From positions 46,470,628-46,534,627 of the forward strand of contig OW028576.1 of the NCBI GenBank assembly GCA_932294295.1: a stretch of DNA of 64,000 nt, read 5' to 3'. Below the pieces are notes generated by a model. It did no database searches and was not told where the DNA came from. It was given only the letters and a program-made list of their open reading frames with translations. Positions 13,381 through 40,464 of this stretch are shown here, piece by piece; position 1 is the first letter of the stretch; every line of letters begins with the position of its first letter. A program made the position numbers and the translations under genes. The stretch comes from Alitta virens (Eukaryota > Annelida > Polychaeta > Phyllodocida > Nereididae).

Positions 13381-13599
13381 GTACATGAATTGTATCACAA
13401 ATAGCACAATTTCAATTTCTATTGAAATATCCTATGTTGAACAAACCAAAATGCTAAGGCATCCACCAATTCCACAGACATAATGATGAGATAACTACCT
13501 GGTGGCAGACATGCTAGTGCTGTATGCCAAAATGTCTGTCTCCAACACCATATTTAAACATATTGTATACAAATATTCTTATTGTAAAAATGATTATGA

Positions 13600-13935: not shown

Positions 13936-14626
13936 GACCAACTACAACATAATCAATCACCAAATCGGTCAATACATTTTCACAATAAGATATGTATGTA
14001 TAATCTCATCAACTATGTTCTGTTCTTGAAAATTTGCACATGATACCAAATATCAGACTATCAGGAAAAAGACTTATTTCCTGGAACGATAAGGAAAACA
14101 CTCCCATTTAACCAAAGCACTGTTTTCAGAAAACTTCATCACCATGGATTTTCTGTGTGCGTATTTTGACAATATCTTTGTTTCCTTTTACTTGTTCATT
14201 CAGTGTTTCATAAACAGGAAATATTGATAATGATCTCTAATGGAATTAAGACTGAATAAGAAGCTGAAGGTGATGCTTTTTTCTTTTTGGTCAGTGAACA
14301 ATATAATGGATGACTTTCAAAAACTTTGCAATCTCGGATATGTGCAATGCATGTGCCCATTGGTATTATCTTCAATCTTGGTACAAAAATGCTCAAGCTT
14401 CATAGCCAATGCTCAACTATTAAAGTAATTATATGTAATAGAGAGGCAACAAACATTAATCCTAAATATTTCCTAGTCTAGAACAGTTCATAAGCTCTCT
14501 GTACATGTTTCCATATCTAAAATAGACCAGATATTGAGCGAGCTATAATTCAAGCAGGAATGTTTTGGTTCATGTTTTTTTATCAATAATTTAGATTACA
14601 TGTTCATTATCACTGTTGTTCATTAC

Positions 14627-14633
14627 TGAGTCA
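14627..14633 (+). promoter_or_regulatory. AP-1-type site upstream of leader exon 1c
   Basis: TGAGTCA, 119 bases upstream of the leader ATG, conserved with blocks A and B. Function is inferred. Confidence 0.25.
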
Positions 14634-14745
14634 TTCATATCTTTCATAACAAGGAAAACTCTTCAGTCTGTACATTATTGTGCAGGAGTACACTACATGT
14701 GATATTATATTTGAGGGAGGTCAACTTCGATTCCGTAAAACAAAA

Positions 14746-14791
14746 ATGTTGATCATCATCCTGTTTGTCCTGATAGGGTTCTCTTTTGGGG
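14746..14791 (+). CDS. Receptor exon 1c: signal peptide, nearest to exon 2
   Basis: ATG opening MLIIILFVLIGFSFG, then one base and a strong GTAAGT donor. It is in phase with exon 2, 1.56 kb downstream, giving ...SFG-ELRSSP. The short intron and good donor make this the most likely default first exon. Confidence 0.75.
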
Positions 14792-20700: not shown

Positions 20701-23700
20701 TCATGAATATAAGTGTGTATTTTATTTTGACTAAAATAGCAATTAGGTTTTAACAGACTAAGTAGTAACTCGACAGCAGCTAATTATTGAGTGTTTCACT
20801 GATTGCAATACATTTTACACTCTTGGATGGAGGCAGGCTTTGGTACAAAAGCAAATATCATATAGATTATAGATCTATTACATATAGAAGTATTAATTTA
20901 CACAAATAATTTCTGCAAAAAGGCAAGTATGCTTTTAAATCATACCATTTTAATAATTATTTCAATTGTGTGAATGCTTGGAAATAATTTATGAATCTCA
21001 ACGTTTTGTTTAAGTAACATATGGGTTTATATCATGTATAGTGTATCAAGTTGACCCCAATTTGTCCAGTTGCTTTTGTGTGGAACAATAGAAACATTAG
21101 AGGGGTAGCTGCTATTTACCCCCATTAGACAAAAAATCAGTGGGGGTCATTCCAATTGTCTTAATCCCCATTCATCACCTGTTAGAAATAATGGGGATTC
21201 CCCAGTTTAATTCATCTGCATATTAGTTACACACTTGACTTGCAAATATTGATAGCAATTATATAATAATGTAAAGCCAAGAGTCTGCATAAAAATCAAT
21301 GCCATCAAGTGTATCCAGATTGCTATCTGACTCTCATGAAAGACTTTCTGAAATTAGCCCTCCTGTGTTCCTACTTGTCTTACTATCCCTCAGCAAAAAT
21401 ATCATAAATATTTTAATTACTTTTGATATGAATGAATTCCACAGAGAGAATGATTATAACAATGCACATAAATACTGATACGTCTAGTATTTGGTCAGCC
21501 TCACTTGTAAAACCAACTTGCCAAATAACAAATTTGACTTGGACAAAAATAGCGAAGTTCAATAAAATACTGATTTACAATATAATGCATTTATTCTTTT
21601 TAACCATTCTTTTTTTAGATCTGCCCTCTGTCATTCTTCTTTTTATAAAGATAGCTTTGGATAAACTTATCCAATGGACGTTAATTTTGAGTATACATGA
21701 TAGAGTTAAACAATACTTCTGTACTTAGTATCAGAAGGAAACATACATTCAAAGAAAAATTGAATTTCATTTTCAAATAATACTATTTTATGATAACTCT
21801 TATAAAGACGCAAGAAAGAGCTAGATAGTGCAATCTATGCAGGGTGTCAATAATTCCCTCTATGAAAATGTTTTTGGATTTTGAGGACTGCAATTGAACT
21901 CACAATGACTGAACAACTATACCTAGCGAAGAATATAGACAATGATTCGTTCTATCTTATAATACTAGTTGGCTGCAAATTGACTTAACTTCGAAAGACG
22001 TGCTTCTATTGTTTACTAAGGTGTTGATCATGCACTCCATTGTGGTAATACAAAGCATATAATAGTGTTATAATAGTCCCATGCACAATTTTTGAAATTG
22101 AAAGAGCTGTACATGTAATCAAACACTGCGCACTCATTTAATGAGACGAAAAATACAATGAAATATATCTCAGCTGTTTTTGACAAAACAGAGATAATAT
22201 GACAACGTTTTCTTTGTGGAAACCAGCTGTATTTAAACCATTGTAATTGCATAATATAACAAAAGCAGATTGTACAGAACAGGGATGAGGAAACATTATA
22301 CAAGAGAGGGGGTTGAACTGGTACAATGCTTCCTTATGATGAATGATTGGATTGCATTGGATTTTCATATTAAATTCATATGAAATGATAATATGTTGTG
22401 CACAACAGTCTTTGTGAAAACTGTTAATATATAACTTTGCAGCAGGTCTGCAAAACATAGCTGAATCGTAAATTAATGTTGACTCGTTCAGAACTGGTGG
22501 GTGGGTGATTAGGGCTTTACTTCCTGAATTTCTGCACCAATTGGGCTAATAAGGACAGGCAGAGACCATGGCAATGAAACGAAGGATGAAACAGCCATCC
22601 AAGTAAGGCTCGACCGGGAATCGAACCCGGGATCCAGCGGTTGGAAGCCCAGAGCGCTACCTCTGATCTAAGCCTCCACCCAGTTCAGAACTGGTAAACT
22701 TTATTTCACATTAGATGTGCCTTCTTTAATAGAGTAGCCTAATTCGGACCATTTAATGGTGCAGAAATAACTATGTCTCATCATACAATTCTTAACTTTC
22801 AAACTGGGCGCATATTAAGTTAATTATAATTTTCATCGGTACCACCAGAAATGTTGCACCAGCCTGTCCCAGGACCTGTAACCCACTGGAAGCTAGCATG
22901 AGGAGCTTTTGTTTGAGTATCTGAGCTAAGAATATCCCCCCATAACAGCCTTAAAGCTGTTGGGCTTCAATGACTCAAAGAGAATATTTTGTATTACAGG
23001 CTTTCTTGCCAATTGCCTATATATTGTCTGCACATGCATTAGCTTTAGCAGTCTTACTATAGCCGTGACACTGAAATTACAATAATTCAGTATAAGGACA
23101 CATATATAACTGACCACATAATAATACTATGATATGTAATAGTGAATTGAATACAATGAATATAATTTACCTTTGTGGGTGTTTTGCTGATCAATGCAAA
23201 TTAGAGCTCTTAAAGCTTCTGCAATGATGTTCTTATGATGAATGATGAATAAGAGACACAAGGACATAAGAAGTGAATGTGTGAAAGGAAACTGGAAAAG
23301 CATACATGTTCACATGGGCCCTGTTTGAGCATTCAAAATGCACATGCATGATTAATAAACAAACCATGATTATTGGAATTGTTAAATAAATTCAGCTTGA
23401 CCTTGTACTGCATAACTATGCAATATATATATCTATTCATCCATTTCACTTTTTAATGGATTTCAGACACATTCGGAGAATTCGCAAAACTGCAATTGGT
23501 GCATCAACCATGGAGAAATTTGGAGAAATTGCTTCTGGGTTTATTGCTGGCTTAGTGTTAACAGGTTCATCATACCATCAACCAGGTAGGCCTATGCATT
23601 AGCTTATTCAGATATATGTTGTTTCAGTGTTATCCAAATAAGTTTATAAAAAAGACGATTTTGCAAAAAAGAATTAATCTACATTAGTCTCACATTTCAA

Positions 23701-26700
23701 CATCAGGTGACATGGAAATTTGACATTTTGACAATATTGTCCAATTTGAATTAATTTGATATATACTTATAAGATCTGGAATCTACTCAACGTGAGATTT
23801 AGTAGCTTGATATATCATCATCTATATTGCTTGATGATGTCATACCTTTCTGTGTTATAATTAGCAGTAGTTTGTAATGTCATGACTACAAGAAAGAACA
23901 TGGTGGGGCAGACGTAACCCAGTGCAGTATTTTTAGTGATGATTAAACTAAGTCTTAGGGAGATATGAAAGCCTGGTATCAATTTTGTTTAAGCTGCAAT
24001 GAGCACTGATCAGGCTTGGGCACATTCTTATTGATTTAATAAAAATAATTTACACGTTAGTCTAGTTCTAAATATCCACAGTGTGGAGAGTGACGTCCAT
24101 CGTCGTATATAATGCTGGCATAATTTGATATAATTTTAAAACAAAATATAATTTTGTAAAAGCAATTTTCTTATTCAGGCAGGGCAACTTGAAATGAAAA
24201 TTACATACAGTTAGGACATGGATAGATATATGATATTATATTTTGGTTAAGCCAATGCTAATCATCAATCAACTTGTTTGGCATAAGTGGTGGCATATAC
24301 CTAATAGGTGTATACGCCAAGATTGAAACTGGGACAATGCTCTAAAGAATAATTTGTCATGAAATATAAATAATTTAATACATCATCCTCAGTAATTACA
24401 GTGTGTTGATACTATCCAGCTACATTGTACATTCACGGAATGTTAAGGAAACTCCTATGCATTTAATCATAAAATAATGACATGATCCTCTTGTAATAGC
24501 AATTATTTACTGTTCTTTCACTGATGAATTAAAATGATAGCTTTTAACACTAATTTCATTAGTTCATGTTTAAGGGTACACAAATCTAATTATTAAAATG
24601 AACTATGACTCAGTAGCCTCAGTTTGATTATTATCTCAAATTACTTTCAGGGACTGATGCATGTTCGTCTAAAAATAGTGGTTGTAAGTATAATTGTATA
24701 CCTGTTTCTAGGGGACGTCAGTGTGGCTGTCCCCACAAAAATGGTATGTTTATTTCAACCAACACCCCTTTTTGTAAATGCCATATCAAGTTACAAAATA
24801 CAGATGAAAATTAAAATTCCTCGTAATGTCTTGAAATTGAGTAGTTACTTTTGTCAATATCCAGATAACTTGTATTTTCTCAGATAGGCTTTACACCTGT
24901 GACAGTCCACAAAATCCAGCTCATGGAGAGGTAAAACCAAGAGGCAAAACAATGAAAGTCGGCACAATCATCAATTTCTCATGTGCAATCGGATATACCT
25001 TGGTGGTGAGTTGGCTTAATGAAAAAACTTTTTTGTATTTTAAAACATACACCTTAAAAAAAATATATTGTGGTCGCTTCACATGTAACAATTGATGAAG
25101 TGCTTTTGAATAGGTTATACCATTGTAGTATTTGTTCCATATAATATATAACTTGGTATGATAAGGAGACAGGTTCATTACTTTTCACTTGAGTAGTAAA
25201 ATGATAAACTAGAACTTGTTTCAATTACACCCAAATTTCATATTGATTATAGTTCATTTATTTAAATTATAAGCCTAAAGTTATGTAATCTCAGTGTCCA
25301 TATATAAATTGGCAAACAGTCATATGGTTTAAACAGTCACACTTGCGATGGACTGTTCACAATGAAACCATGTAGCCAATCGACTGTGAAGTACTCGCAA
25401 CTGGATCATGCATTTTGCCAAGGAGATGTCACATTTCATGATGTCAAACTTGTGTTACAAATACTCCTTAGTGTTGGGTGAGAAACAGCTTATGAAGGAT
25501 TATGATCCTAGTGTTAGGACTGGATGTGACTTATGAAGGAGCTTTCGCATGGAGATTGTGGACACTACTTATGAAGATCAGCATTTAGCTGGTTCCTGAG
25601 GGACACGATGATCTTCAGCATTGGTGAGGTAGGCTTTGCTCGATGTTGGCTGGACTAATTATGTTACTTGTTGTTACTGGATACATAACTAGGCACTTCT
25701 TACATCATCTCCACCCAGATTCTCCACTCTATGATACGGAAGACAAACTCATGATTGCAGTGTAGACTGTTCATATCAATCCACTTATCAGAGCATCATT
25801 GAAGAGTCTCCACACTTAGCTGTGAAAGCTGTCTCGATGTCACTTTCCTTGACTTCATTGACTCACCCTTTTCCAAGCCTTTAATTCATGGAAATAAAGA
25901 GCACAGTACCAGATCAGGTCCACAGTTTCTCTTCCATTTTCCTATGAGTGTACACATCTTAATGGCATCTATCAGTACTTCCAACCAATAATATGGATTG
26001 CTTACTCACAAATTTCACTGATGGCATGCCTCTCTTCTTGATAAATTACCTAATTACTATTTTAGACAAGCTGGAAAATAAGAAAAAAAATCTGATTATT
26101 CTTGGTGATATAAACATTTACCTACTTAAAACTTATACTCATAGAGAGAGTAACGAATACCTGTCTACAATAATTTCTAATGGCTTTATCCCAACAATAA
26201 CAATCCCTACTCGTGTGACTCATAATTCCTGTACCTTAATATACCATATATTTGCGAGAGTGAAATCTTCCAAATTTAGTTCAAGAACAATCACTACTGA
26301 ATCAGATGTAACAGATAATTTTAATACTTATGTCCCACAAAGGAGTGTTAAGTTATATCTCATATCACAATTTCAGTGATGCAAACATAACAAATTTGCA
26401 TTGTCATGACTGGTCCACTGTAACCAGTAGTCAATACACCAATATTAGCTATAATGAATTTTTGAGACTTTTCCATGACAGATTTGAACAGCATGTGACA
26501 CTGATTACCCAAAGATTTAATAGATACAGACTTAGAAATGAACCGGTAATAACCAAAGGTATTCTAACTTCTTTGAAAACACGCGATAAAAATTGTATGT
26601 ATAGCAAAAGTATTATATTACAGAACCCAATAGTTATTTATCAAATCGCTGCAAGATCACACTGAAAAAAAATTTAAAATCAGATACGATGATCATTTCG

Positions 26701-29700
26701 AGTGGCGTCCCTCAGGGGTCAATTATAAGCCCACTCTTATTTCTGATATACATAAACGATATCAAAAATGTTATCAAAGTCGGTCACCCAATCTTAGTCG
26801 CTGATGATACCAATGTTCTTTATACCCACACGTATCTTTTTATTTTAAACCAGATTACTAATTGTGAATTATAACGGATAAGCCAGTGGTTTATTTCTAA
26901 TTTCGTTAATATGTCCAAGACAAAAATCATAGTATTCCATGGTCCACAATAAGCCTAAAATGTCCAAGTAATTCTTAAAGGAATCACACAAAATGTACAA
27001 TATCTCCGTTTTTTTTGGTGTCATCATTCAGGAAAATTTGTCTTGGAAGAATCACTTTGGTTCCATTTGCAAAAAAATTGCAAAAATCTAGAATTACTTT
27101 ACCTCCTTAAAACGCCAGCTGCCGGAATGCATTCTTCTTCAGTATATAATTCTCTAATTATATCTTACACTATTTATTAAAAGACAAAGCCGCGATATTC
27201 ATAGCCATTTGGCAAGACTTAAAGTAGGGAAACTGTCTAATGATGAAGTAGGTGAAATATGGAACTCCTTGCCTCTTTCATTCAAGACATAAGACAAAAC
27301 CCTGTTCTCCTTTAGTAAAATTTCACCGGATATCTTCATGTTGGTAAAAAAATTTCACCTGATATCTTCATGTTAGTAAAAGTCCACCTGATATCTTCAT
27401 ATAAAGCACCATGCAGTCAAACTAATTGCTTTCATGCATGCATGCTTTAGATAAAATAAAGTTTCTTCAGTGATTCTCACCTTGATCTTAGTCTAAGCTT
27501 CAGGTGGATGGTAGGTCTGCCCGTCCTCTCCAAGGGATCCATCCTAGAGCTCAATGGTACTTATATGTACAATATGAATCACCTTATATTATCACCAGGG
27601 GTGGTCTCAACTTCAGCTACTGGGATCTCCCCCACATTGCCACACCATAACTAATATTAATTATCATATTATTAATTGAATGGATTCATATATTTTGAAT
27701 TTTCCAGTTTTTTGGGGTATCTGCTTGTCAGAGCAAGAATTGTATTAGCTCAGCACAAGGACATTTAATAATTGTTATTCTGTAATTTATTGTCAGATCT
27801 TTAATACCACAAGCCAGCATATAAACTATAAGAGAAATTGATACATTTAGTTTAGATAAGTAAATGTGCGAAATATGTACACAATCAAGTTGTTTTGCTT
27901 TGAGTTCATGACACACAGTGTATTATTATGAGTGTATGTATTTTTGTTCCAAAGGGATCACAAACTAGCAACTGCACTGAATGTGGTGAATGGGAGCCAA
28001 TTGAACCGACGTGCAATAGTAAGTTGACAAGCTGTTCATTTAGAACTAAGAACATATTTATTTCATATTACACACATCAATCATATTGATACAATTTAAC
28101 ATATAAGAAACATAAGAATGAAATAAAAGATGATACATGTAATATGAGGGGATATCTCTAAGATATTTGATATATCGCTACTGAGATGCCCCCCATGGTT
28201 TCCTGAGGACCACCACAATTCCATCACACCTTGATGCTACTATTTAATATCTTTTGTCAATGTGCTTGTGTTCAACACACAGATGATTAAGATGTCTTCA
28301 TGAAAACGACATTCAGTTAAATGAAATTCACATACTTGGCGGTATTTTCAGATTTGTAAAATGAAATTCACATATTATATTGCAAAATATTTTCAGTTGA
28401 TATAGTGGAATAGATGGTATGAATCCCTTGTGTAAATGTACATGGACTTCATAAATACATTCAATTTATATTATGATTTTGGATGTGGTTATACCAAGAG
28501 GTAAAGAAAAAATGAAGAATCCCGTACAGGGAAATGAAAGACACAAAAAGGAGGGATTTAGGAGGCGAAAAACGAATCCCAAGAGGAAACGCGATAGAAC
28601 AGTACTAGGAAAATACAAAAAAGGATAAAAAAAGACAAGAGGGGATCAGCAAATCATGTAGCATTTTGTCAGATATAGCAATTTGTTATTGTGCAATTTT
28701 CCAAGTTAAATATATAAAATAATTTTTTATATACCGTGAAAAACCAGAAATACTATGAGTATGTATCTTTTCTTTGATACAGGTTGAACAGCTGTTTAGG
28801 ATATTAAAAAACAAATGTCTCCTAGACAGGGATTCCAAATTTTCTGCATTTCTTGCTTCATATTTGTGCCTATCTGAGTGTCTGTTATATTGTAGGGATA
28901 CAAAATAGTGTGGGAGGGTTCTATTTTCCAATTTGTAGGCAAATTTAAGCTCTTGCAGTGCACATAGGTCAGAGATTTTAAGTAATTGAAGTCCTTAGAA
29001 AATTGGATTGGTATGAGCATTTTATTTATCCTTTATGATTTATTTTTTCAATTTAAATAACCTATTGTTTTGGGTGCCCCATTCTAAAATGCCATAATTC
29101 ATATAAGGTAAAATCAGAGAGTCGTACAGAGTAAGAAGAGTGTAACTAGGTATGAAATGTTTCAATCTACTCATTATGCCTATGGTTTTTAATATTTTAT
29201 GTTTATTCAACATGAACCAGTTATTTATATATTGATTTTATCCTCTAAATTTTGATTGACATTGCCAAATGTATTAGGAGTTTTAGAAAGTACTGTATCA
29301 TCAGGATAGATAATCTGCTTAAAAAGTGTGGTTATCATGTTGATATCATTTATATAAATAATAAATAACAGCGTCCAGAATTGATCCCTGTGGCACTCAA
29401 GTACTAAGTATTTGAAAATCGGATCGTTTGCTATTAAATTCCACATACTGGTTTCTCTCTGACAGAAAATTACTAAGTAAGAGTAGAGAATTACCTGACA
29501 CTCCATATTTGCTATTAGATCTAGATAGATATTGATTGGTATTTCATTATTATACATTTTTTAAACTATTCTGTTTATAATTTCCAAAGTTGCCAACTCA
29601 GTTGATTGGTTAGTTCTAAAACCGTAATGGTTATCATATAAAAAATCGAATCTATTAAAATAATCATATAACTGAAAACGCATTACTTTTTCAATTACTT

Positions 29701-32700
29701 TGGATATGCTGGGTAAAACTGAGACTGGCCTATAATTATCAAAAACATAATTTAAATTTTTCTTGAATAGTGGTGGCACTTTAGCTATTTTCAGCTGGTG
29801 TGGAAAAATGTCTGTATCCAAAATCTGATTTCTAATTAAAGTCAAAGATTCAGAAATTCCAATTTATTAATTCAATTATTATATGTCTGTAAATTTGTCT
29901 TATACTTCTTGTAATCTGGACTATTGCTAGGAGTAGCTCTGAGTTTAGCATATAATTTGTCCTTAAATTTGATGGATCTCTTAATGCCTTTAGTTATCCA
30001 TTTACTTTTTTTATGTTTATACTTATTGTAGCGGACTAATTTTACAGGAAGATGTTTGTTCAGAGCATTTTGCATTATATCATTGAGCATGTTATAGTTC
30101 ACATTGGGCTCAGTACTTATATCCGTGCAAAATTTATCGGTAGTGCAATTTAATCCAATTTCAGTTTTGAAGTTATCTTTGGCTGTTGAAGTGTTTGTAA
30201 ACATTTTAACAAATTTTAGATTTTCAATTGCTATAGAAACATAATCTAAAGTTACAAAATATGGTTGGTGGTCAGAAATATTATAATTGAGAATTCCAGC
30301 TGTTGTCTTAGAGAAATTGGAGGAAAATTTAACATAGCAGTTATCTTTCAAAGTACTGCTATGTGATGTTAATCTTGTAGGCACTGTTATTTTTGGCAGA
30401 TAGCCATTCGAAATTATATATTCATATTTTTTTTAAATATGGAGTGAATCTTTAAGTTTCAATAATTCGATATTAAAATCTCCTTTAATTATTACATTTC
30501 TATATGAGTGCAACTTTGAACACAAAGTTTCATCAATTTCATGAGAAAACATTTCATAATTTTCTACAGTCTCTCCTGGAGGCCTATAGATGTTACCTAT
30601 AACAAGCTTTGACTTATTAATTTGCATGTGAGAACAACTCAAGCTTACCTCAATAAAAAGTTTGACTGTTGCCATATATCTGTAACATGTTGAATTCATA
30701 TTTCTCCCGAATGTATATTGCTACTCCCCCATGTGCACCAAATCCAAGGCATGTGAATCAATGTATATCCTTGGAGGTAAAAGAGAGATATATCTTCAGT
30801 TTCAGAAAACCATGTTTCTTGTAAACATACTATGCTAAAAGGGCACTGTGTTAATTGGAAATGTTCTATATAAATTTTCAACTGGTCAAACTTTGCGGAT
30901 AGTGACTGACAATTTAAACTAATTATTGAAAATGTATTTTTCTTTTCAATTAATAGCTTAGAAGCTTCGTCGTATTATAATAGGTTGAATGATCAAGCAA
31001 TACTGGCATCTTATCTTCGTCATACTGTGTGTCCATGACATCTAATGACAATTTTTTTAGTGTTAACCATAAATAATAATCTTTGAAAAAGCAAACGATG
31101 GATTGGCGCGAGTCCCCCTGAAACCATACAATATAAGGTTAATATTATGAAGTTCTGAATAAAAACTGCAGTGATTATGAACATGGTGGTTTGTGACAAC
31201 AATTAGAAACAATGGTACATACTCAAAAGAATATGAGTTAATTGTCTTATTTAGTCAAACATTGCATTTAAAGACACATTTATATCTACTCGAAATATGC
31301 AGTGGCTACACTATGCAAACATTAAACATGACACACAGGATTATCATGTAGTCAACACCGTACCTCCCCAGTATATCAATATCCATACGATTTTATAACT
31401 TAGACAACTGTCTACAAGACAAAACTTAATTGATCCAGATAAGATACAAGCTCAACATCAAATATCACGGACTCTGGCATTAAAAGAGTCAACAATCAAG
31501 CAGCTAACAACATGTCATCTTTATAAAACAAACAAACCACAGACAGTTTCGTTTCAAACAGCACAACAGTAAATTAATACAGTTGAATTGATAAGAGTTG
31601 TTCACAGTTTGTTCAAGCAGCCAAATGCAAAATATAAATTCAAACAAAATATGGCTATGAGTCTGGTGAATTAAGTTATTTAAGCACTTATCAAGGCATC
31701 TCGAATTTCTGGACATCAGTGACAGAAGGGGAAGTTATATGGAGCCCAATTTTAGATGCAGAAGCAGGTTTGAGAAATTAAGGTAGCCTGATTTGAAGCA
31801 TTGCATTACCAATTGGTTGTAAGACAAGATGGTGATGACATGTGAAATGGAGAAGTATTCAGGATTTGCAGTTGACTGTCAGTTTTATCATGTTTATTGT
31901 TTATTATAATATAAATATTATTACATATTGTTTATTGATAAAGATTTCTTCTACCAAACTGTAGAGAACAAAAAATACGTAAATCTAATACACTGTGCAC
32001 AGTAAAGATAATAATGATAATAAGAAACAAGTGAAAAGAGTAAGATGTCATGTACTTATTTGAAAAAACGAAAATAATTATAATTTTTGTAAGTATATTG
32101 CCTGTCACTAATAATTCAATTGAACAATTGTCAAATAATTCACAGAGATTTTGTGTGGACACCCAAGCCCTCTCCTACATGGTCAGCTACATTTAGAGTC
32201 TGGATCTGCATATGTTCACAACAGCAGAATCAGAGCAACCTGTGATGAAGGTTACATTCTCCATGGTGACAACTTTCAAGTGTGTGATGCAAATGCAAAA
32301 TGGTCAGGGATCACTCCCTTATGTCAGCGTAAGCATATTTATTTAATATATTCATCCGCGAGATGTAGGCCACATACACATCCATTGTTATTTCTCAATA
32401 TAATGAAGCTATTCCATTTGATGATTTGCTATTCATGTCATGACAGTGATTTTATTGTATTTTTCATGCAAGTTGTGGGACTCGATTAAGTCTGTGGAAG
32501 TGGGGTACATTTTGGAAGAACACTTTTTTACTTCTCAATCTGTCACTGATCTCACACAAATCATTCTGTAAAGGATGCCTTAAGGAACATCTCAACTTGA
32601 CAGTTTATCTTTCTTATGTGAATGACAAATTTGAACTGCAGTTAACTGGGTCACTTACTCTAGAGCAATAACTGGGTCCATTACAACTTTCATTAGCAAT

Positions 32701-35700
32701 AGAGGTCTCTCAAGGCATGATGAACCCAAGTAGCATGAATTATAGACAGAGCTAGTTGCACCAGGAATGGACTCGGCTACACAACTCATGTTGTGACCTG
32801 ATATTGTTCACACTAACTTATATTAAAAAATGAATATTAAAATAAATTAAGTATACTGTGACATTATAATCAAAGAAAAACACCTCATTCAGAATTGCCT
32901 GTCACTAGTAATTCAGTTGATCAATTGTCAAATAATTCACAGAGATTGTGTGTGGACACCCAAGCCCTCTCCTACATGGCCAGCTACATTTAGAGTCTGG
33001 ATCTGCATATGTTTACAACAGCAGAATCAGAGCAACCTGTGATGAAGGTTACATTCTCCATGGTGACAACTTTCAAGTGTGTGATGCAAATGCAAAATGG
33101 TCAGGGACTCCCTCCTGTCAGGGTAAGCATATTTATATGATTAAAATATCAGCGAAGAGTTGAGATGTGAACCACATACACATCCATTGTTATTTCTCAA
33201 TATAATGAAGCTATTCCATTTGATGATTTGCTATTCATGTCATGACAGTGATTTTATTGTATTTTTCATGCAAGTTGTGGGACTCGATTAAGTCTGTGGA
33301 AGTGGGGTACATTTTGGAAGAACACTTTTTTACTTCTCAATCTGTCACTGATCTCACACAAATCATTCTGTAAAGGATGCCTTAAGGAACATCTCAACTT
33401 GACAGTTTATCTTTCTTATGTGAATGACAAATTTGAACTGCAGTTAACTGGGTCACTTACTCTAGAGCAATAACTGGGTCCATTACAACTTTCATTAGCA
33501 ATAGAGGTCTCTCAAGGCATGATGAACCCAAGTAGCATGAATTATAGACAGAGCTAGTTGCACCAGGAATGGACTCGGCTACACAACTCATGTTGTGACC
33601 TGATATTGTTCACACTAACTTATATTAAAAAATGAATATTAAAATAAATTAAGTATACTGTGACATTATAATCAAAGAAAAACACCTCATTCAGAATTGC
33701 CTGTCACTAGTAATTCAGTTGATCAATTGTCAAATAATTCACAGAGATTGTGTGTGGACACCCAAGCCCTCTCCTACATGGCCAGCTACATTTAGAGTCT
33801 GGATCTGCATATGTTTACAACAGCAGAATCAGAGCAACCTGTGATGAAGGTTACATTCTCCATGGTGACAACTTTCAAGTGTGTGATGCAAATGCAAAAT
33901 GGTCAGGGACTCCCTCCTGTCAGGGTAAGCATATTTATATGATTAAAATATCAGCGAAGAGTTGAGATGTGAACCACATACACATCCATTGTTATTTCTC
34001 AATGTAATGTAGCTATTGCACTTGATGATTTGCTATTCATGTCATGACAGTGATTTTATTTTATTTTTCATGCACGTTTTGGGACTCGATTAAGTCAGTG
34101 GAAGTGGGGTAAATTTTGGGAGAACGCTGTTTTATTTCTCAACCTGTCAATGATCATTCTACATAGGGTTGCTTGACGGAATGTCTAACCTTCATAGTTT
34201 ATCTTTGTGTTTCAGTCTCAAATCAAATTATATTTGTAGCTTCATCTAGACATACATTTGGTATGGATCATGAACAAATATTATAGCATGTTTTCAAATA
34301 GTGGAAAACGTTTTTTCACTGAAATCTTGTTATTTCCTTGATCTTTGCAGCTATCATATTTGTCCAAGTCTTGTAGCACATAACATGAGAAATTATAATT
34401 TTAAATGTTTTTACTATTTACGCCACCTTTGTTTTTTTTAATATATTTTTAAATTACAATAAGAGATCTTTTTGTAACCAAACCAAAGTGAGGCTGAAAT
34501 CATATCTCCATAGCCTTGAAGAGCTTAAAGTTGGTGGCGATCTAAGCTGTCGCAATCTGCATAAACTGTATGAATAGTTGGGACAATCAGCCATCTTATT
34601 CACTGGCATTAATAGATGATTAACACATTCATTTATGTTTCAGAATCAGCAAATATAGGTTTGTTTAAATTACTGTTTTAGCTTAACTCACTATTATGGC
34701 AGAAGAATAAGGCATGTTATTATTGTTTGAGTATGTGATAGGAACCAACCAACACTTAGACAAACATGTGCACCTGCTGCAAACTAATATGGAGTTTGTA
34801 GCCTGTAATTAGCATAATTATATTTGCTTAAACAAACTTCCCATTTTACACTCAGTCAGCTGGTTGTATAGCCATTGATATCTCAGCCTTCCCATATACA
34901 CCTTGTCAGAGTTGAACAGTGATTTCAGGAGGATATATTCACTTCTATGTCATGGTCCTATAACATTGAACAGAGGTTAAAACAGGGCATGGGAGTCACC
35001 CTCTATCATTTCAATTTACATCATTAAGATTATTACATGCTGAAACAAAAATAAACTTTCCCCTTCTGTATTTCACACAATTCAAATTCACTGTTAATTA
35101 AAACTTTTTCCACACTCTCAAGGATGTTAATATTTGAAAACAGACTTCCAGGTGATTGCATTTAGTGAGCCCTGTAACCCTGGTCTCACTATTTTCAATT
35201 GATTTAGTCTTAGGACAAGCAAGTTGTCAGTTGTACCAAAGAGAGTTTTACGTATCTGCGTAAGCATTTACAATGCTTGTATGTTTTCATCATCTAGAAT
35301 TATTTTGAAAGTAAATATGACAATTACAATAGGTATATAATTACTAATTATGACACTATGACTGAAATTCTATTTTATTTTGTTGAACCATTTTAAGGAT
35401 CATTTTCTTTGTTTAGGAGTCATAATTGCAACGTCACTTGGAATACCAGTATCAGTGTTACTTATTGTATTGGCTTGTATCTATTGCCGGTGAGTGACTC
35501 CTCACTATACAGGTTGCACCACAAAAAACTGCACAGGTGGTTAATTGCTTGCATATCTCTTAATTTAAGTCGCCTTGTGTAGGTTCAAAGCAGTTAAGGT
35601 TCTAAATTGTCCCTTAAACACATTTCAATAGTTACAGTTGCACAATCTACTTGTGTCTGGCTAGAAATGAAGAATACACCAGCAGTGGCAGCTATTTTGC

Positions 35701-38700
35701 ATGCCAGAATGAGTCCTACAGAAATTGCTAAGCAGCTAGGAATACGAAGAAAAATAAGTTGGAGATGCCAGGAACAGTTAAGAGAACACCTGGCTCTGGT
35801 CAAAAAAGATCTGTGAGAACACAAGGCATGATCACCAAAGTCAAACGCCAGATAAATTCAAATCATGTCAGGTCCATGAGAAAAAAGGCTTCAGAGCTTA
35901 AAATTAACCTTACATCTATGTGCAGAAGTACAAAAGCAGTACAAACACCCAGCATCAGTCATGGTGTTTGGCCTTGTGGCATCTGACAGTGAGAAGATGC
36001 GCCTCATGTTCATACCCGCAGGTGTCAGGATCATTACAGATATCTATTCGGAGATTCTTTTGAATAAAGTCAAGCCATCGGTGCAGTCCCATTATCCTGA
36101 AGGGAATTATATAATATTATTCCAACAAGATGGGGCTCCCACACACACATCTGAAAGGTGGCAAGAATGGCTGAAGTCTAACTTGGTAGCGGTCTGGACA
36201 GAAGAAATGTGGCCCCCACAGAGTCAATCTAAATACATTGGACTATAGCATATGGGATAACGTGGAGAAAGATGCCTCCATACATCTGTGGAGGCCCTCA
36301 AAGTTTCAGTAACCAATACATGGCAAGAGATGAACCCTGGCTATATTCGGTGTACATGCTCTGCATTTATTGATCGTCTAGAAACCGTTATTGCAGCAAA
36401 AGGTGGATGCATCGAAAAATAATCACTCTATCTCTCCCTTTTGTAATTGATATATCCATCCTTAATGAATATGTATACCTGTTTGAGATATGTGTCTTGA
36501 ATTTTTTTTATCGAAGTGTGCAGTCTTTTTTGGTGCACCCTGTATAACTGTTTAAGAAACATTAAAGTTACAAAGCATCTATAAGAGGCAGTGAAATGAT
36601 TGGATGGACCACTACATATAATAATAATAATGGTTAAAAACATGGGTGAATGGATGTTTATGTGCCTTGGAACTCCAGTCATACTTTGAAATGTGTCCGG
36701 CTAATTTGCGTCAAATTTTATTGTTACAGAAACTTTCAGTATTGGTAAAATACTGTTTTGTTTAGCACAGTTGGACATAGTACATACAGTGTCATACACC
36801 TATAACCATGAATTTATTCATCATTGGCATGCAATAATACAACATTTTTACACCCCTCCCCCCACCCTGACATCTGGTTTTTGACGGACCCCCACCCCCG
36901 CTTATTCTACATTCAGGTATTTAGAAAATACTGGTCAACCAACCCCCTCCCTCAATATCAGTCTTTCCCAGATCTGTATCTGAAAAAACTTCAGGTTGGC
37001 CTTTTCCCCCTCCCCCCTCTTTTTTAAATGGAATAGCTCTAATAGCAGGTAACATCATTGTGGCTTGAACAAAATATGATTAAGGTGTGAAAAATGTCTC
37101 TGTGTTCTTGTCAATATACATCATATCATGACCTGATATATTCTATTTTTGTCAACCATTCAGAATTTAAAAACCTTTAAGCAATGTTGGACTTGATGAA
37201 ATTTGCCTGTTAGGAAAATGTACAAGCGTTCTAGCATTTTTCTCACTTGTGTAAAACAATTTATTCCTGGTGAAATGTGCCTGTAAAAAAAATAATTCCC
37301 AGCCAAATGTGCCTGCCAGATGATGAAATATGCCTTTGTGGAAAATATTTTGTGCATTCTAGCACTTATTCCACTCATGTAAAAACATTAATTCCTGCCC
37401 AAATGTGCCTGCCAGATAATGAAATGTGCCTGGGAGCAAAATTGCTGGGTTCCTGCAGTTTATCCACCCTTGCTTAAAAACAAACTAGTTATTGGGTGGA
37501 AAATGGTTTTCTAATTGATCACTTCTGTTCCATATTAGAACATATAACATTGATATTAAAAATCCTACACCTTATTATATTTCAACAATGTATTTGCATT
37601 GCAGAAAGCGCAAGATCTGTTGCATTTGGAAAATATCAAATGAAGTATACAATGACATTGCTGATGAAAATCTTTATGACTACATTGAACTTGAAGGAGT
37701 CTTACAGGCTGTAGATGCTGCTCAGTAAGTACTAATTAAAAAATGTGACATTTAATTGAGAATTCAATATTGTGCAATATGTAAATATGTAATTGACACT
37801 CAGTGTCATATCACAATCTGTACTCTACCGGTGACAATGTTGCAAGCCCCTTGCAGCCTGGGAAACATAATATGTACTGAGTTTGAGAAACTGTAGCACC
37901 ATGACTTACCTGCCCCTTTAAATAAGTGTCTATGCTGAGGCAAGTGAAAGATCCCACTCATTGGGTAAATGTGTAACTTCCTTCTCTCTCTCTCAACTCA
38001 TCAATGAACCCTCGTTAGTGGCAAGAATTTGCCTTGTAGGGCTGCACTTCCCATACAAACAATCAAAATGAATATAGTTCAAATATAAAATTGTCTTTCT
38101 TGATTAAAAAATTGGAGCTAGGAGGTAATGTATACACTGGAAAATTTCTGAATATTTTAATGTGTCTGACATTGTGAAAATCGCATTGACTGTCATGATG
38201 ATGATGCATGCATCTTATTACTTGTCACGTTAACAATGATGCACACTTAAGGGGCATCATATACATGTCTTTTTTTCCTGCTGAGTCTCATGTTGGTTTA
38301 TTTTGTACAACAATTGAGATTTCACATATGGATCACATGATGCTTTGGTTATTATCATCACATGTATCTGATGCTTTTTCTCCATTTTATTTTTAGAGTT
38401 CCAGATTTGCCAGACAGGCCATGCATTGCACAGGAAATGGATGCATCAGGATTTGCAATACACTGCAATTTAGAACCACAGCTGCCAGAAGGGGTCAATG
38501 ATGCCCAAGGAAATATTGATGACAGGGAGTCACTCCTTGGGTATGTATCATTATCAACTGCATTTAGCAGTTTAGGAGTATCTTGATAAACGTAAAGGAT
38601 AAATGATCCAAAGTAATTTTTATGAACTATTCTTGCTCGACATTGATTTAATGTGATAGACAATCTTAATGTTAGTTCAATTCAGTTTAAATCACATGTG

Positions 38701-40464
38701 TCGGGAATCATGTGTTAACAATTAAACACATTGCATTCAAACTGAATGCATTCAGTGAAGTGCGTAAATTTTAGTATTTGAAGATGTAGAGATATACTCC
38801 TTGTTGTTACTATATTAATGGTATATTACAAATGTTTGAAAAGAAAGTCTTTACTATGGTTAAACACTATATTATAATATGGTTTTGTTATGTTGTCTTG
38901 ATTTAAGAATTGACTCCAACAATAAGGTTTAGGAACTCTATTACAGCCATTTCGGCTTGCCAAAATTATTTGGGGTTTACAATATAAATGTGTGCAGGGC
39001 ATTAAACTGAGAGAGTCAACAGATCAGAACGGGAAGCTAGGCTAGTTTAATCTTAGAGACTGCTGTTGAAAATTGACTCTATAAATTTATACTTCAGCTA
39101 GTTGTACGTGTGGCCCATCAGGTGCAGAAATTAATCCACCACATGTGACCTCTGTTTAGTGCAAATGACCCATAAGTGTTGATTGTTTATGTGTCTTAAT
39201 CACAAATGTTTGCACTGAAACAAAGGTCAAATGAGGACTGAGTTGTGACGACACAAAGTTAACACCAGTATTTTACACTTTATCTCCTCATATTATTAAA
39301 GGGAAGTTGATGAGAGTCTGGACAATAAACTCACTACTGAAGAAACAAATCCAGGTAAAAATCTGGAAATCAATTGCGATGTGCCTGCTGATGGAAATCA
39401 TTCAGTAGAGGACAGTGAAGATCCAGTGGCAAGGTGAGAACATTTATAATTTAATATTTTTTCAATCATTTTAATTTTGTTGCAAAAATATTTGAAAACG
39501 ACATAATATAACATTGTAATGCATACAATATTTTCTATTCATATGTAGTATTTAAAGAACCACCATAATGACTACAATTTGCCTGACATCAATTAAATGA
39601 TAATCAAATTATTGCAGCAATGATATACCACAGAATGACGTGGTTGGCGCAACTGCAGAAAGTCCTGAGATAAACACCGACCACAACTGCTTAGTGCTAA
39701 TTCAAGGAGATGAAAAGTCTAGATGGGAAAGAATAGATTCCCCTGAACCACCAGAAGATCTGCAAAATGAAAACAATGGGCAAATTGAGTACTCTTACGC
39801 TGACATGAGGTATCTGCAAAATATGACACCTGCTGCAACAGACGTGTCAAGGCCAGAAATAGATGATCCAGAGGCTGCCGAATATTCCTATGCCTACATG
39901 CAACAATGGAGATTGCAGCTCATTGCAAAAGATAAACAAAGAAATGTTGCTGAGAAAAAGGATAGAGAGGTTAGGGGCAACTCATACCTAGAACTTATTG
40001 GTGATGATGACAATCATGGATCCAGTGAGCAAGGAGCAGAATTAACTAATATAGAGCTGCCTGGAGATGATCAGATTGAATATTCCTATGCTTACATGGG
40101 GCCAAAGAGAAAGATAAATGCAACAATGAAAGGTGGACAAAATGTCACTGAAGAAATAGACAATGACTCTCTTACCACAAAATTACTTGGTGTGGGTGCT
40201 GAGACGAGTGATTTCATTAAAGACGATGAAGACACTGCATATATAAAAAAGGCATTGCAAGGTATAGATGGAGACAACCATGAAAACAAAGATATCAAAA
40301 ATGATGTGGCCTCCAGTTTTAGGGATGAAGCTTGTGGTCAAATGCTGCATGATGTTATTCAAGATGATACAGGCAATGTCTATGTTAAATGGGTATCAAA
40401 TACAGATGAACCATGTCCCACAGTGGGAGATATCATTCGAGATTTATCCAATGAAACTTTGTAG
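14746..40464 (+). CDS. Multi-exon type I receptor: YWTD propeller, EGF, 4 sushi, TM, ITAM-like tail (gene span from exon 1c)
   Basis: Joining 17 exons gives 2982 nt, 993 residues, with no frame break. Order: signal peptide 1-15; YWTD propeller about 17-281 (degenerate motifs YWTG, YVTD, IWHD, YFCD, IYTV); EGF-like about 282-313; sushi 1 about 316-374; sushi 2-4 about 375-554; TM about 556-578; RKRK stop-transfer at 580-583; cytoplasmic tail of about 410 residues. The tail has YNDI...YIEL (595-609, ITAM spacing of 7), YxxM at about 772, 803 and 869, YLEL, and an acidic dileucine (DRESLL). The propeller-EGF half is built as in LDL-receptor proteins and suggests ligand binding; sushi domains are common in adhesion and complement-type proteins; the tail suggests kinase/SH2 signalling. 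The ligand is unknown. Joined exons: 14746-14791, 16348-16581, 19152-19314, 19439-19572, 20165-20312, 23467-23585, 24651-24743, 24884-25005, 27955-28018, 32146-32328, 32943-33122, 33745-33924, 35417-35489, 37605-37724, 38397-38540, 39302-39433, 39618-40464. Confidence 0.85.
14840..15140 (+). repeat. SINE-like interspersed repeat (copy 4)
   Basis: Same body as the copies at 6.4 and 13.6 kb (gagacattaaattggaggtg, cctgtccatgggataag, ggtgtggactccaaac). It sits just behind leader exon 1c in the same relative place as copy 2 behind exon 1a, so it predates the block duplication. Confidence 0.7.
16348..16581 (+). CDS. Receptor exon 2: YWTD propeller, blades 1-2
   Basis: Acceptor gtttcag, donor GTAAGT, phase 1 on both sides. 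It encodes ELRSSPMLYFMDNNDLYKMS... and YDPVKDYLYWTGTENK, the opening strand and first clear YWTD-type motif (YWTG) of an LDL-receptor propeller. An N-glycosylation site (NAT) lies near the end. Confidence 0.9.
17160..18110. mobile_element. Degraded relative of the TU-like foldback, in intron 2
   Basis: The phrases cagtctttatttgacgaaaatcgg and ggggagcagcagccttttaaa (17190-17250), and cattctgattccatgggtgttttcgga-like with ccaaatattaagc (about 17930-17980), match the inner modules of the 8.5-11.7 kb element in opposite orientations. gacgtccgtgcc at 18051 also matches. The GC-rich outer arrays are missing. Confidence 0.6.
18551..18571. repeat. (AT)n microsatellite in intron 2
   Basis: About nine TA/AT dinucleotides. 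The rest of intron 2 outside the foldback remnant is AT-rich, with attcattcatt-type simple runs at 18715-18865 and no coding signal. Confidence 0.85.
19152..19314 (+). CDS. Receptor exon 3: YWTD propeller, blade 3
   Basis: Acceptor attacag, donor GTGAGT; enters in phase 1 and leaves in phase 2. It encodes GNIRGIGVDYISGLLYVTDS and LNSPSSIVVDPENG, the standard 'G(I/L)AVD...LYWTD' propeller pattern with YVTD in place of YWTD. Confidence 0.92.
19439..19572 (+). CDS. Receptor exon 4: YWTD propeller, blade 4
   Basis: Acceptor ttttcag, donor GTAAGT; phase 2 in, phase 1 out. It encodes LLIWHDFDDRTITRATMAGG and REVLVSGLSQNS, closely following the LDL-receptor 'LYWTDW...I.RA.LDG...VLV..L' pattern, with IWHD at the YWTD position. 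Confidence 0.92.
19899..19973. repeat. 21-bp inverted repeat in intron 4
   Basis: gtcgaacatagagttctgcag (19899-19919) returns inverted at 19953-19973 with one mismatch, separated by 33 bases; 17 of the pairs are contiguous. It would form a hairpin in the pre-mRNA. The surrounding intron has repeated 'catccaac/atacactg' phrases similar to 48470-48660. Confidence 0.8.
20165..20312 (+). CDS. Receptor exon 5: YWTD propeller, blade 5
   Basis: Acceptor cccttag, donor GTAAAG; phase 1 in, phase 2 out. It encodes GGRLYFCDNLLCIIDSIALN and YGIAVDEQYIYTVGSR. YFCD replaces YWTD and a glycosylation site (NGT) follows. Two extra cysteines (CD and LLC) within the blade are unusual for the family. Confidence 0.9.
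20480..20645. repeat. Degenerate 'acttgg' simple repeat in intron 5
   Basis: Repeated variants of acttggact and caagtact over 160 bases. The rest of intron 5 up to 22485 shows no coding or structured element that I can name. Confidence 0.7.
22486..22695 (-). mobile_element. tRNA-Gly-derived SINE with 13-bp target duplication
   Basis: Flanked by gttcagaactggt at 22486-22498 and again at 22683-22695. Read on the minus strand it starts with a tRNA-like head: A-box-like tagatcagaggtagcgc, a loop cttccaa (anticodon TCC, as in tRNA-Gly) and a perfect B box ggttcgattcc. An unrelated body of about 110 bp follows. The intact target duplication and good B box mean a fairly young insertion, in intron 5 of the receptor. 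Confidence 0.8.
23467..23585 (+). CDS. Receptor exon 6: YWTD propeller, blade 6
   Basis: Acceptor atttcag, donor GTAGGC; phase 2 in, phase 1 out. It encodes RHIRRIRKTAIGASTMEKFG then IASGFIAGLVLTGSSYHQPG, equal to the last blade ('I.RA.K..G......L..GL..P..I.V.H...QP') that closes the propeller before the EGF unit. Confidence 0.88.
24651..24743 (+). CDS. Receptor exon 7: EGF-like unit
   Basis: Acceptor actttcag, donor GTATGT, phase 1 on both sides. It encodes TDACSSKNSGCKYNCIPVSR then GRQCGCPHKN, the EGF-like unit that always follows the propeller in LDL-receptor proteins ('T.PC...NGGC.H.C......C.CP.G'). Only five cysteines lie in the exon; the sixth may be the first cysteine of exon 8. Confidence 0.9.
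24884..25005 (+). CDS. Receptor exon 8: sushi domain 1, first part
   Basis: Acceptor ttctcag, donor GTGAGT; phase 1 in, phase 0 out. It encodes DRLYTCDSPQNPAHGEVKPR...GTIINFSCAIGYTLV, the first two cysteines and the 'F.C..GY.L.G' core of a CCP/sushi domain. Splitting a sushi domain over two exons after this point is a known arrangement. Confidence 0.9.
25006..25990. other. Intron 8, left part: no gene
   Basis: AT-rich up to about 25300. From 25320 to 25980 it is more mixed in composition, with no readable open frame. It may be the decayed 5' part of the LINE that follows. Confidence 0.4.
25993..27430 (+). pseudogene. Internally deleted LINE in intron 8
   Basis: The plus strand first encodes an endonuclease C-terminus (LIILGDINIYLL, then ITIPTRVTHNSCTLIYHIF), then a middle segment (HDWSTVTSSQ...). 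It jumps at about 26690 to reverse transcriptase (SGVPQGSIISPLLFLIYIND and VADDTNVLY, the catalytic DD box). A frame change and the missing first half of the transcriptase show an internal deletion. Decayed coding remains continue to about 27200. Confidence 0.8.
27320..27410. repeat. ~36-bp tandem repeat, three copies
   Basis: aaaatttcaccggatatcttcatgttggt is followed by two variants (cacctgatatcttcat). It lies at the 3' end of the LINE remnant, where tail repeats are common. Confidence 0.75.
27955..28018 (+). CDS. Receptor exon 9: sushi domain 1, second part
   Basis: Acceptor ccaaag, donor GTAAGT; phase 0 in, phase 1 out. It encodes GSQTSNCTECGEWEPIEPTC, completing sushi 1 (third and fourth cysteines with the conserved W). 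There is one extra cysteine (NCTEC) and a glycosylation site at NCT. Confidence 0.88.
28686..30960 (-). pseudogene. Decayed LINE in intron 9
   Basis: From right to left on the minus strand: endonuclease (CLQETWFSETED; IGNIYRPPGETVENYEMFS; GDFNIELLKL; and NISDHQPYFV), a linker rich in lysine, reverse transcriptase (PPLFKKNLNYVFDNYRPVSV, YGFRTNQSTE), then YINDI with a mutated catalytic box YPDDT in place of YADDT, and a C-terminal tail. Frames change several times and stops intervene, so it is dead. Same broad family as the 62.6-64 kb LINE. Confidence 0.85.
30961..32100. other. Intron 9, right part: no gene
   Basis: AT-rich with no significant open frame and no repeat that I can name. Confidence 0.5.
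32146..32328 (+). CDS. Receptor exon 10: sushi domain 2
   Basis: Acceptor ttcacag, donor GTAAGC, phase 1 on both sides. It encodes ILCGHPSPLLHGQLHLESGS...ATCDEGYILHGDNFQVCDAN...WSGITPLCQ: four cysteines, 'CDEGY' and the conserved W of a CCP domain. It differs from the next two copies mainly at the end (SGITPLC against SGTPSC). Confidence 0.93.
32943..33122 (+). CDS. Receptor exon 11: sushi domain 3
   Basis: Acceptor ttcacag, donor GTAAGC, phase 1 on both sides. Starts IVCGHPSP and ends WSGTPSCQ; complete CCP domain with four cysteines. Identical to exon 12 as far as I can read. Confidence 0.93.
33745..33924 (+). CDS. Receptor exon 12: sushi domain 4
   Basis: Copy of exon 11 with the same splice sites and phase. 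It is the last extracellular domain; the next confident exon begins the membrane helix almost immediately after its final cysteine, so the stalk is very short. Confidence 0.93.
34644..34658 (+). CDS. Possible 15-nt microexon before the TM exon
   Basis: tttatgtttcag then aatcagcaaatatag then gtttgt. It enters and leaves in phase 1 and would insert ESANI plus one junction residue between sushi 4 and the membrane helix. The donor is weak. It is included only because phase and position fit; the gene reads through equally well without it. Confidence 0.25.
   Translation, partial: NQQI
35417..35489 (+). CDS. Receptor exon 13: transmembrane helix
   Basis: Acceptor tgtttag, donor GTGAGT. It encodes GVIIATSLGIPVSVLLIVLA then CIYCR, an uninterrupted hydrophobic stretch of about 22 residues ending in C and R. 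A mariner-like transposon starts only 20 bases beyond this exon. Confidence 0.92.
35510..36542 (+). pseudogene. Mariner/Tc1-type DDE transposon, dead, in intron 13
   Basis: Terminal inverted repeats: caggttgcaccacaaaaaac at the left against the reverse of gtcttttttggtgcaccctg at the right, flanked by TA on both sides. Inside are broken pieces of an IS630/mariner-class transposase: a helix-turn-helix segment (MSPTEIAKQLGI), the catalytic DGAPTHTS box, WPPQS at the place of the usual WPPxSPDLNP, and a C-terminus (FIDRLETVIAAKGGCIEK). Frames shift several times and the part before the first catalytic Asp is shortened. It cannot make active enzyme. Confidence 0.9.
36836..37022. repeat. C-rich polypyrimidine stretch in intron 13
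   Basis: Runs such as cccctccccccaccc and ccccctcccccctctttttt. No coding function is seen. Confidence 0.6.
37190..37450. repeat. Degenerate repeat, two ~130-bp units, in intron 13
   Basis: Repeated phrases aaatgtgcctgccagat, gatgaaatatgcct, cattctagcactta and aattcctgcccaaatgtgc. The short open frames here arise from the repeat. Confidence 0.65.
37605..37724 (+). CDS. Receptor exon 14: juxtamembrane basic stretch and ITAM-like motif
   Basis: Acceptor tgcag, donor GTAAGT; phase 1 in, phase 0 plus two bases out. It encodes (R)KRKICCIWKISNEVYNDIAD and ENLYDYIELEGVLQAVDAA. RKRK is a stop-transfer signal; CC next to it could be palmitoylated. YNDI (Y595) and YIEL (Y606) are 7 residues apart between motifs, meeting the ITAM rule YxxI/L-x6-8-YxxI/L; Y604 lies between. 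Confidence 0.92.
37895..38060 (+). repeat. SINE-like interspersed repeat fragment (copy 5)
   Basis: gtgtctatgctgaggcaagtgaaagatcccactcattgggtaaatgtg matches the middle of the 13.6-kb copy; the ends are lost. Confidence 0.5.
38397..38540 (+). CDS. Receptor exon 15: cytoplasmic tail with acidic dileucine
   Basis: Acceptor tttttag, donor GTATGT, phase 2 on both sides (144 nt). Encodes VPDLPDRPCIAQEMDASGFA... and ends DDRESLLG. DRESLL fits the [DE]xxxL[LI] adaptor-binding signal for endocytosis or lysosomal sorting. Confidence 0.88.
39302..39433 (+). CDS. Receptor exon 16: cytoplasmic tail, acidic
   Basis: Acceptor attaaag, donor GTGAGA, phase 2 on both sides. Encodes EVDESLDNKLTTEETNPGKN... 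and ends SVEDSEDPVA; acidic, low complexity, probably disordered. Supported mainly by phase and by the open frame on both sides. Confidence 0.82.
39618..40464 (+). CDS. Receptor last exon: tail with three YSYAxM repeats
   Basis: Acceptor attgcag; 847 nt to the TAG stop. Tyrosine motifs in order: IEYSYADM (39784-39807), AEYSYAYMQQ (39880-39906), NSYLEL, IEYSYAYM (40075-40098), TAYIKKAL and NVYVKWV. YADM and YAYM fit YxxM, the p85/PI3-kinase SH2 ligand; YMQQ fits YxxQ; YLEL fits YxxL. The rest is acidic and Asn/Asp-rich, probably unstructured. The three repeats sit in similar contexts, which suggests internal duplication. Confidence 0.95.

Follow-up and report, generated by a model that had tools for sequence, protein, structure and literature searches.

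Predicted propeller and sushi receptors with an ITAM-spaced tyrosine pair form a tandem family in the genome of Alitta virens

Immunoreceptor tyrosine-based activation motifs (ITAMs) are known from vertebrate chains such as CD79, CD3, FcR gamma and DAP12, most of which are small signalling partners. Among invertebrates, Draper of Drosophila, a receptor of the CED-1 family, has an extracellular part of the epidermal growth factor (EGF) type. Here we describe a predicted gene of the annelid Alitta virens in which a YWTD propeller of the LDL receptor (LDLR) class, sushi domains, a membrane helix and a pair of tyrosine motifs with the spacing of an ITAM are joined in a single gene model, in agreement with the original prediction for this DNA. 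The gene lies in a stretch of 64,000 nucleotides (assembly GCA_932294295.1, contig OW028576.1, positions 46,470,628 to 46,534,627), called the window below; positions given without a unit are those of the window. Its receptor shares YxxI/L-x(6-8)-YxxI/L in the tail with the vertebrate chains and differs from them in the ectodomain and in the residues flanking the motif, the ITAM model of Pfam fitting vertebrate controls and not the window tail. It differs from Draper in having a propeller and sushi domains where Draper is of EGF type.

Several described systems come close to this arrangement. Draper signals through an ITAM to Src42A and to the Syk homologue Shark, and Draper-I, like the window receptor, is an invertebrate protein whose outside is not of immunoglobulin (Ig) type and whose tail itself carries the motif (PMC4503800). 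Draper, however, has an NPXY motif, which is absent from the four tails described here, and the function of its ITAM has been demonstrated experimentally. In Botryllus schlosseri, the Fester co-receptors (FcoR) join Ig and sushi domains to tails with immunoreceptor tyrosine-based inhibitory motifs (ITIMs) or hemi-ITAMs (hemITAMs) (PMC12065747). They too form a clustered multigene family, in which each single-pass receptor combines a sushi domain with a long tail bearing immune tyrosine motifs, but their outside consists of Ig and one sushi domain, with no propeller mentioned, and their tails carry ITIMs, hemITAMs or single core motifs instead of the full YxxI-x7-YxxL found here (PMC12065747). 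Likewise, a classic ITAM has been described in an invertebrate receptor of the Pacific oyster, CgIgIT2, which has five Ig domains outside (PMC11999971). The original prediction, which named Ig-type and adaptor receptors as the known bearers of ITAMs, was incomplete in view of the ITAM of Draper and of the FcoR, which couple Ig plus sushi to ITIM or hemITAM tails. As for the ectodomain, LDLR/LRP family members (LRP1, LRP2 and LRP6) also have a YWTD propeller followed by EGF, and the LRP1 tail contains YXXL (PMC11325810); the window receptor differs in that it has neither class A repeats nor NPxY but carries sushi domains and an extended tail rich in tyrosines. The whole words YWTD, sushi and ITAM seemingly occur together in no open-licence PubMed Central (PMC) paper, among the matches listed. 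The combination of propeller, sushi and ITAM seems to be undescribed in the open-licence PMC literature, but the general plan of a tail plus an outside is already known.

The gene model comprises 17 exons on the forward strand (14746 to 40464), whose 2982 bases encode 993 residues and a stop codon; all junctions are GT-AG and in phase, and the predicted protein contains no internal stop. In order, it consists of a signal peptide, the propeller (exons 2 to 6), an EGF module (exon 7), sushi 1 (exons 8 and 9), sushi 2 to 4 (exons 10 to 12), the membrane helix (exon 13) and a tail of 414 residues (exons 14 to 17). Exons 13 to 17 were labelled E12 to E16 in the scripts, and these labels are used below for the alignments. 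Judged from its sequence, the gene is not a chance product, since no stop interrupts its last exon for 282 codons (given the stop frequency of the window, P about 1e-8), the tail exons of three relatives (B, C and D, see below) have the same splice signals, and the exon indels are multiples of three.

The tyrosine pair is encoded by exon 14 (E13, 37605 to 37724), which also encodes RKRK and is found in the relatives. This exon is bordered by AG and GT, and both junctions proposed for it (35489/37605 and 37724/38397) preserve the frame, with split codons that fit their neighbours. At the start of the tail, RKRKICCIWKISNEVYNDIADENLYDYIELEG, YNDI is followed by seven residues (ADENLYD) and YIEL (37648 to 37692, residues 595 to 609, YNDIADENLYDYIEL). 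The resulting YxxI-x7-YxxL agrees, as had been predicted, with the spacing rule of YxxI/L, six to eight residues and YxxI/L. The pair had also been placed directly after the helix and RKRK; it does lie on the RKRK side, where Y595, the first tyrosine of the pair, stands 15 residues past the first residue of RKRK, but it is not immediately adjacent, as ICCIWKISN separates RKRK from EVYNDI. An acidic residue stands ahead of the first tyrosine (E at -2), and the pattern [DE].{0,2}Y..[IL].{6,12}Y..[IL] matches; [ILVS]xYxx[ILV] has no match in the window tail. The order of signal peptide, helix, RKRK and motif would place the pair in the cytoplasm.

The ectodomain preceding this tail appears to be a divergent YWTD-EGF unit of the LDLR class with added sushi domains, because chains of LRP2, LRP4, LRP6, LRP8, LDLR and VLDLR matched inside residues 20 to 311 in the PDB sequence search and an EGF module aligns after the propeller in the alignment with LRP2, even though Pfam does not name the propeller. 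The whole-protein E value for LRP2 (about 1e-83) is a sum over several propellers, the best single propeller scoring 61 bits. The LDLR propeller model of Pfam gave no match at its cut-offs, and the propeller is therefore regarded as divergent. Scanned against Pfam, the joined protein showed four sushi stretches (PF00084, 5e-40) and neither LDL-receptor class A repeats nor Ig domains.

To describe the relatives, the window gene is called A, and B to H are copies on the same contig (C4) of the window's own genome (671,116,069 bases in 23 contigs). When the last exon was used as the query, 16 matches were obtained including the window's own, all on C4 between 46.51 and 47.27 Mb. The ITAM exon gave seven (best candidates scored), at 46.508 to 47.275 Mb on C4 and none elsewhere, to which a local search added two partial copies, H and a second piece at F, making nine. 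Six of these (A to F) contain the pair. From helix to tail the splice is open in B (569 residues), C (584) and D (500), with the same splice signals as in the window gene (438 residues), and B stops five residues ahead of the end of A. In B, propeller exons 3 to 6, EGF, sushi, helix and tail follow in order across 46.556 to 46.586 Mb, a stretch that does not extend to exons 1 and 2; the window is therefore not alone in having the unusual joining. For their part, E, F, G and H have stops in the last exon and are probably broken; the substitution counts of their last exons were excluded because of the broken frames, as were the tyrosine counts of F, G and H (41/45), which include one spurious H cell and some G cells out of frame. 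A last-exon fragment at 46.608 Mb (L017) had no ITAM exon in the 9 kb covered there. The last exons of B and C (L009 and L010) are longer than that of the window gene; besides GNSYLEL they contain extra repeats of the GNSHLEL type, and they have an additional YLDM motif.

The pair, its x7 spacing and all alignable tyrosines are kept in the three open-tailed relatives, the only change within the pair being an inner A to D in B. Across A to D, the tyrosine cells that can be aligned match A in 48 of 48 cases, versus 1059 of 1241 other cells (P 0.0006, the cells not being independent); by columns the figures are 16 of 16 for tyrosine, one of them in the membrane exon, and 322 of 398 for the others (P 0.04). 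When A is compared with C, a single silent substitution and no amino-acid replacement is seen in the 15 codons of the motif, with P about 0.003 if the sites were neutral (pS, the silent divergence, 0.142), and the chance of at most one amino-acid change in these codons, as in B, is 0.02 under neutrality. Over the whole tail, change between A and B is biased to silent sites (P 0.0006). The ratio of amino-acid-changing to silent substitution (dN/dS) in the ITAM exon is 0.21 to 0.31 against B, C and D and 0.53 to 0.75 against E to H. In E12 to E15 of B, C and D, indels relative to the window gene come in lengths divisible by three (3 bases in E13, and 33 in E14 of B only), and 11 or 12 of the 12 or 13 gaps in the sole alignable gapped intron do not. 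In the propeller there is no silent bias between A and B (ratio 1.34, P 0.33), a P value with which an excess over 1 is not established. The make-up of changes differs between the outside (propeller, EGF and sushi 1) and the tail (P 0.02), the later sushi domains (ratio 0.53 against B) being excluded from this comparison.

Partners for such a tail are encoded in the same genome, which contains 48 SH2 places. An SH2 exon at C1:36218569 had SYK as its best PDB match (4.7e-14), followed by ZAP-70 (1.7e-11) and SHP-2 (5e-8), among the best 60 of 149 rows. Within C1:36218401-36228400, the first 5.7 kb contain in order an N-SH2 in two pieces, an inter-SH2 piece, C-SH2 pieces and a kinase with HRDLAARN and DFG, matched against a human SYK sequence. 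This SYK-best exon and the ordered C-SH2 and kinase pieces indicate that a Syk-type kinase is encoded here, whose presence makes the mechanism possible. Syk is also listed in a sea star egg transcriptome (PMC11593052). Src-like and SHP-2-like SH2 exons are present as well, and by visual inspection further SH2 exons were assigned to PLC gamma and CSK. Two CSK-type exons (by eye) lie 400 bases apart at C5 20666000-20666619 (L027 1100-1318 and 1501-1719) and look like a duplicated or alternative exon.

These data are best read as a young family of tandemly arranged receptors that cross the membrane once and have a tail for phosphotyrosine docking, plausibly with Syk coupling. The tail, probably unstructured, would most likely serve as a docking platform; that its docking includes Syk coupling through the pair is a tentative proposal, to which we give a little less than an even chance. 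In this mechanism the outside half, with its divergent six-blade LDLR/LRP-type propeller, EGF and several sushi domains, would be the ligand-binding end, and a ligand would cluster the receptor. A Src-type kinase would then phosphorylate Y595 and Y606, and the encoded Syk would bind the pair via its two SH2 domains and become activated, while the YxxM sites would recruit phosphatidylinositol 3-kinase (PI3-kinase). The predicted Syk-type signalling receptor is upheld in part. The domain joining, the pair kept in three of three open tails and the Syk-type kinase speak for it, whereas the failure of the Pfam ITAM model, a match confined to the bare consensus and the competing YxxM sites do not.

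A number of results weigh against Syk coupling through the pair. The Pfam ITAM model PF02189, a curated model that is not strictly defining, matched neither of two sequences from this genome and matched above cut-off all three vertebrate controls. A position score, built on 11 vertebrate ITAMs and thus a vertebrate yardstick only, gave 12.7 for the window pair, at the low end of the vertebrate leave-one-out range (11.9 to 25.1), and 10.4, 8.1 and 7.6 for B, E and F, all under that range; among random sequences fitting the pattern, 16% scored as high as the window pair and 36% as high as B. The predicted pair resembles an ITAM beyond the bare consensus only weakly. Queried on its own, the ITAM exon region found no match in Pfam or among the PDB sequences. 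The pattern Y..[IL].{6,8}Y..[IL] arose in 2.4% of shuffled 414-residue tails, in 1.2% of cases when the 40-residue exon was shuffled by itself and in 12% with the whole protein (20000 shuffles each), so many receptors in one genome would carry it by accident and the letters alone are weak evidence; the bare pattern was found in 0 of 27 proteins from the database searches (30062 residues). Within the family, three of the nine exon copies lack the pair: G, in which a Y has become F and an L has become H; H, whose first motif is deleted; and the second piece at F. Copy F itself keeps the pair but has a stop just ahead of it in the ITAM exon. On the conservation of both tyrosines and their spacing, the copies within this genome are divided: the three relatives with open tails keep them, and the three copies without the pair do not. 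For the ITAM exon alone, the silent bias between A and B is not significant (P 0.085). The motif was also considered as an island of conservation, an idea that was rejected when 138 of 397 tail windows (17 residues, B to E) proved equally conserved. Two aligned tail introns are 86 to 91% identical, and tail exons E12 to E15 90 to 97%; B, C and D are young copies, and their agreement is therefore limited evidence.

Nor was an orthologue found in protein database searches with the whole protein, the tail or the propeller. The tail had no relative among 7429 candidates, and the propeller none among 2928, with two weak matches (E 0.016 and 0.61). For the whole protein, 7999 candidates of 0.55 to 1.75 times the query length were scored and 25 returned, 22 with sushi (PF00084) and none with both PF00084 and the LDLR propeller PF00058. 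With no orthologues found in other species, the check on tyrosines and spacing is limited to copies inside this genome.

The tail contains three YxxM sites and further YxxI/L motifs, so PI3-kinase docking and AP-2 uptake remain live rivals. Docking without Syk, by single SH2 proteins and chiefly by PI3-kinase at YxxM, is the stronger of the two, although still rather unlikely in our estimation; the x7 spacing would then be coincidental or would suit another tandem-SH2 protein such as SHP-2, and SHP-2-type SH2 exons do occur in the genome. YxxM is clearly enriched in the tail (3 versus 0.26 expected, P 0.001), whereas Yxx[IL] is not significantly so (4 versus 2.0, P 0.13), and Yxx[ILMV] overall stands at 7 versus 3.1 expected (P 0.02). 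All three YxxM sites, YADM inside EYSYADM (39796 to 39807) and YAYM inside EYSYAYM (39889 to 39900 and 40087 to 40098), recur in B, C and D, where YLDM and YMKM or YVKM are present in addition. Scanned tail pieces, moreover, contained no Pfam family, ITAM included. Such docking accounts less well for two motifs that are both kept in all three open-tailed relatives, close to the membrane and in a single exon.

An endocytic or scavenger receptor, in which YNDI, YIEL, YLEL and YxxM would act as YxxPhi sorting signals for AP-2 like the YxxL of LRP1, seems improbable. The propeller is indeed of LDLR/LRP type, and targeting of LRP1 to clathrin-coated vesicles is driven mainly by YXXL and not by NPXY (PMC11325810). 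However, none of the four tails (window gene, B, C and D) has NPxY, and tails this long, with at least 414 residues and at least 15 tyrosines, far exceed the needs of uptake. The residue at +2 is acidic in YNDI, YIEL, YLEL and YADM, and an acidic +2 after the tyrosine would fit SH2 binding better than AP-2 sorting.

A chance motif or a decaying family without signalling, in an array that is turning over, is very improbable: it could draw on the frequency of the pattern in shuffled tails, the stops in E, F, G and H and the loss of the pair in G and H, but the tails of the window gene, B, C and D are open over five exons (that of B five residues shorter), their change is biased to silent sites and their exon gaps come in multiples of three.

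Beyond the docking tail with Syk coupling, a broader scenario may be considered, which we regard as doubtful: a lineage-specific tandem family of immune type, in which a fast-changing propeller and sushi part would replace the Ig or lectin recognition end and the receptor's own ITAM would be wired to Syk, the ITAM plan having arisen independently. If the pair recruits Syk, immune-type activation would reach a class of ectodomain for which no ITAM coupling was found in the open-licence PMC literature, and the cluster, in which the tails are constrained and the outsides change faster, would become a candidate recognition system with testable ligands. If the YxxM sites dominate, the family would instead be an invertebrate PI3-kinase-coupled one. 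Either way, the data suggest that tyrosine docking tails have been joined to more outsides than Ig and lectin domains.

The remaining exons support the model as follows. Exon 1 (14746 to 14791) starts with ATG and encodes a predicted signal peptide, MLIIILFVLIGFSFG, with a mean hydropathy of 1.96 over 19 residues; it has a GT donor, and its phase fits exon 2. The first-exon region is present in three copies, at about 6295, 13335 and 14746, each with a signal-peptide-like start, in blocks with about 78 to 93% identity that lie in 5102-7448 and 12271-16236; judged by eye, the donor is poorer in the copy at 13335, and the three are possible alternative first exons. Exon 2 (16348 to 16581, in phase) encodes propeller blades 1 and 2, and the LDLR chains 1n7d and 3p5b align from query residue 23. 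Blades 3 to 6 are each encoded by one exon, in phase and with PDB matches: exon 3 (19152 to 19314; 76% identical in B), exon 4 (19439 to 19572; 63%), exon 5 (20165 to 20312; 75%) and exon 6 (23467 to 23585; 70% in B and 75% in C). Exon 7 (24651 to 24743), the EGF module of the YWTD-EGF pair, aligns with LRP2 EGF modules and gave a weak FXa_inhibition (EGF-type) match below the cut-off. Sushi 1 (PF00084, residues 318 to 373) is divided between exon 8 (24884 to 25005) and exon 9 (27955 to 28018, in phase), and sushi 2, 3 and 4, also assigned to PF00084, correspond to exons 10 (32146 to 32328), 11 (32943 to 33122) and 12 (33745 to 33924). The region 32097 to 34155 contains a tandem duplication of about 802 bp with sushi exons, of which exon 11 is part; the sequences of exons 11 and 12 are identical, and the duplication is therefore either very recent or an assembly effect.

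The membrane helix, VIIATSLGIPVSVLLIVLACIYC, is encoded by exon 13 (E12, 35417 to 35489) and has the highest mean hydropathy of the protein, 2.59 over 19 residues. Downstream of the ITAM exon, the tail continues in exon 15 (E14, 38397 to 38540) and exon 16 (E15, 39302 to 39433), both in phase and with a joint dN/dS of 0.30 to 0.32 against B, C and D, in which exon 16 is present. Exon 17 (E16, 39618 to 40464) encodes the remaining tail and the stop codon, with the 282 open codons mentioned above, and has relatives in the array.

An Rfam search of the window gave 0 matches. Several mobile-element remnants were recognised by eye: a Tc1/mariner-like one in the intron preceding the ITAM exon (35600 to 36540), reverse transcriptase remnants in further introns as well as downstream, and the frame of a THAP9-like transposase; the other regions concerned are 26000 to 27300, 29000 to 31000, 61594 to 62262 and 62610 to 63927. 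Finally, a tandem array occupies 57643 to 60810, with about 12 copies of a 224-base unit that are 85% alike (57643 to 60367) and two further units.

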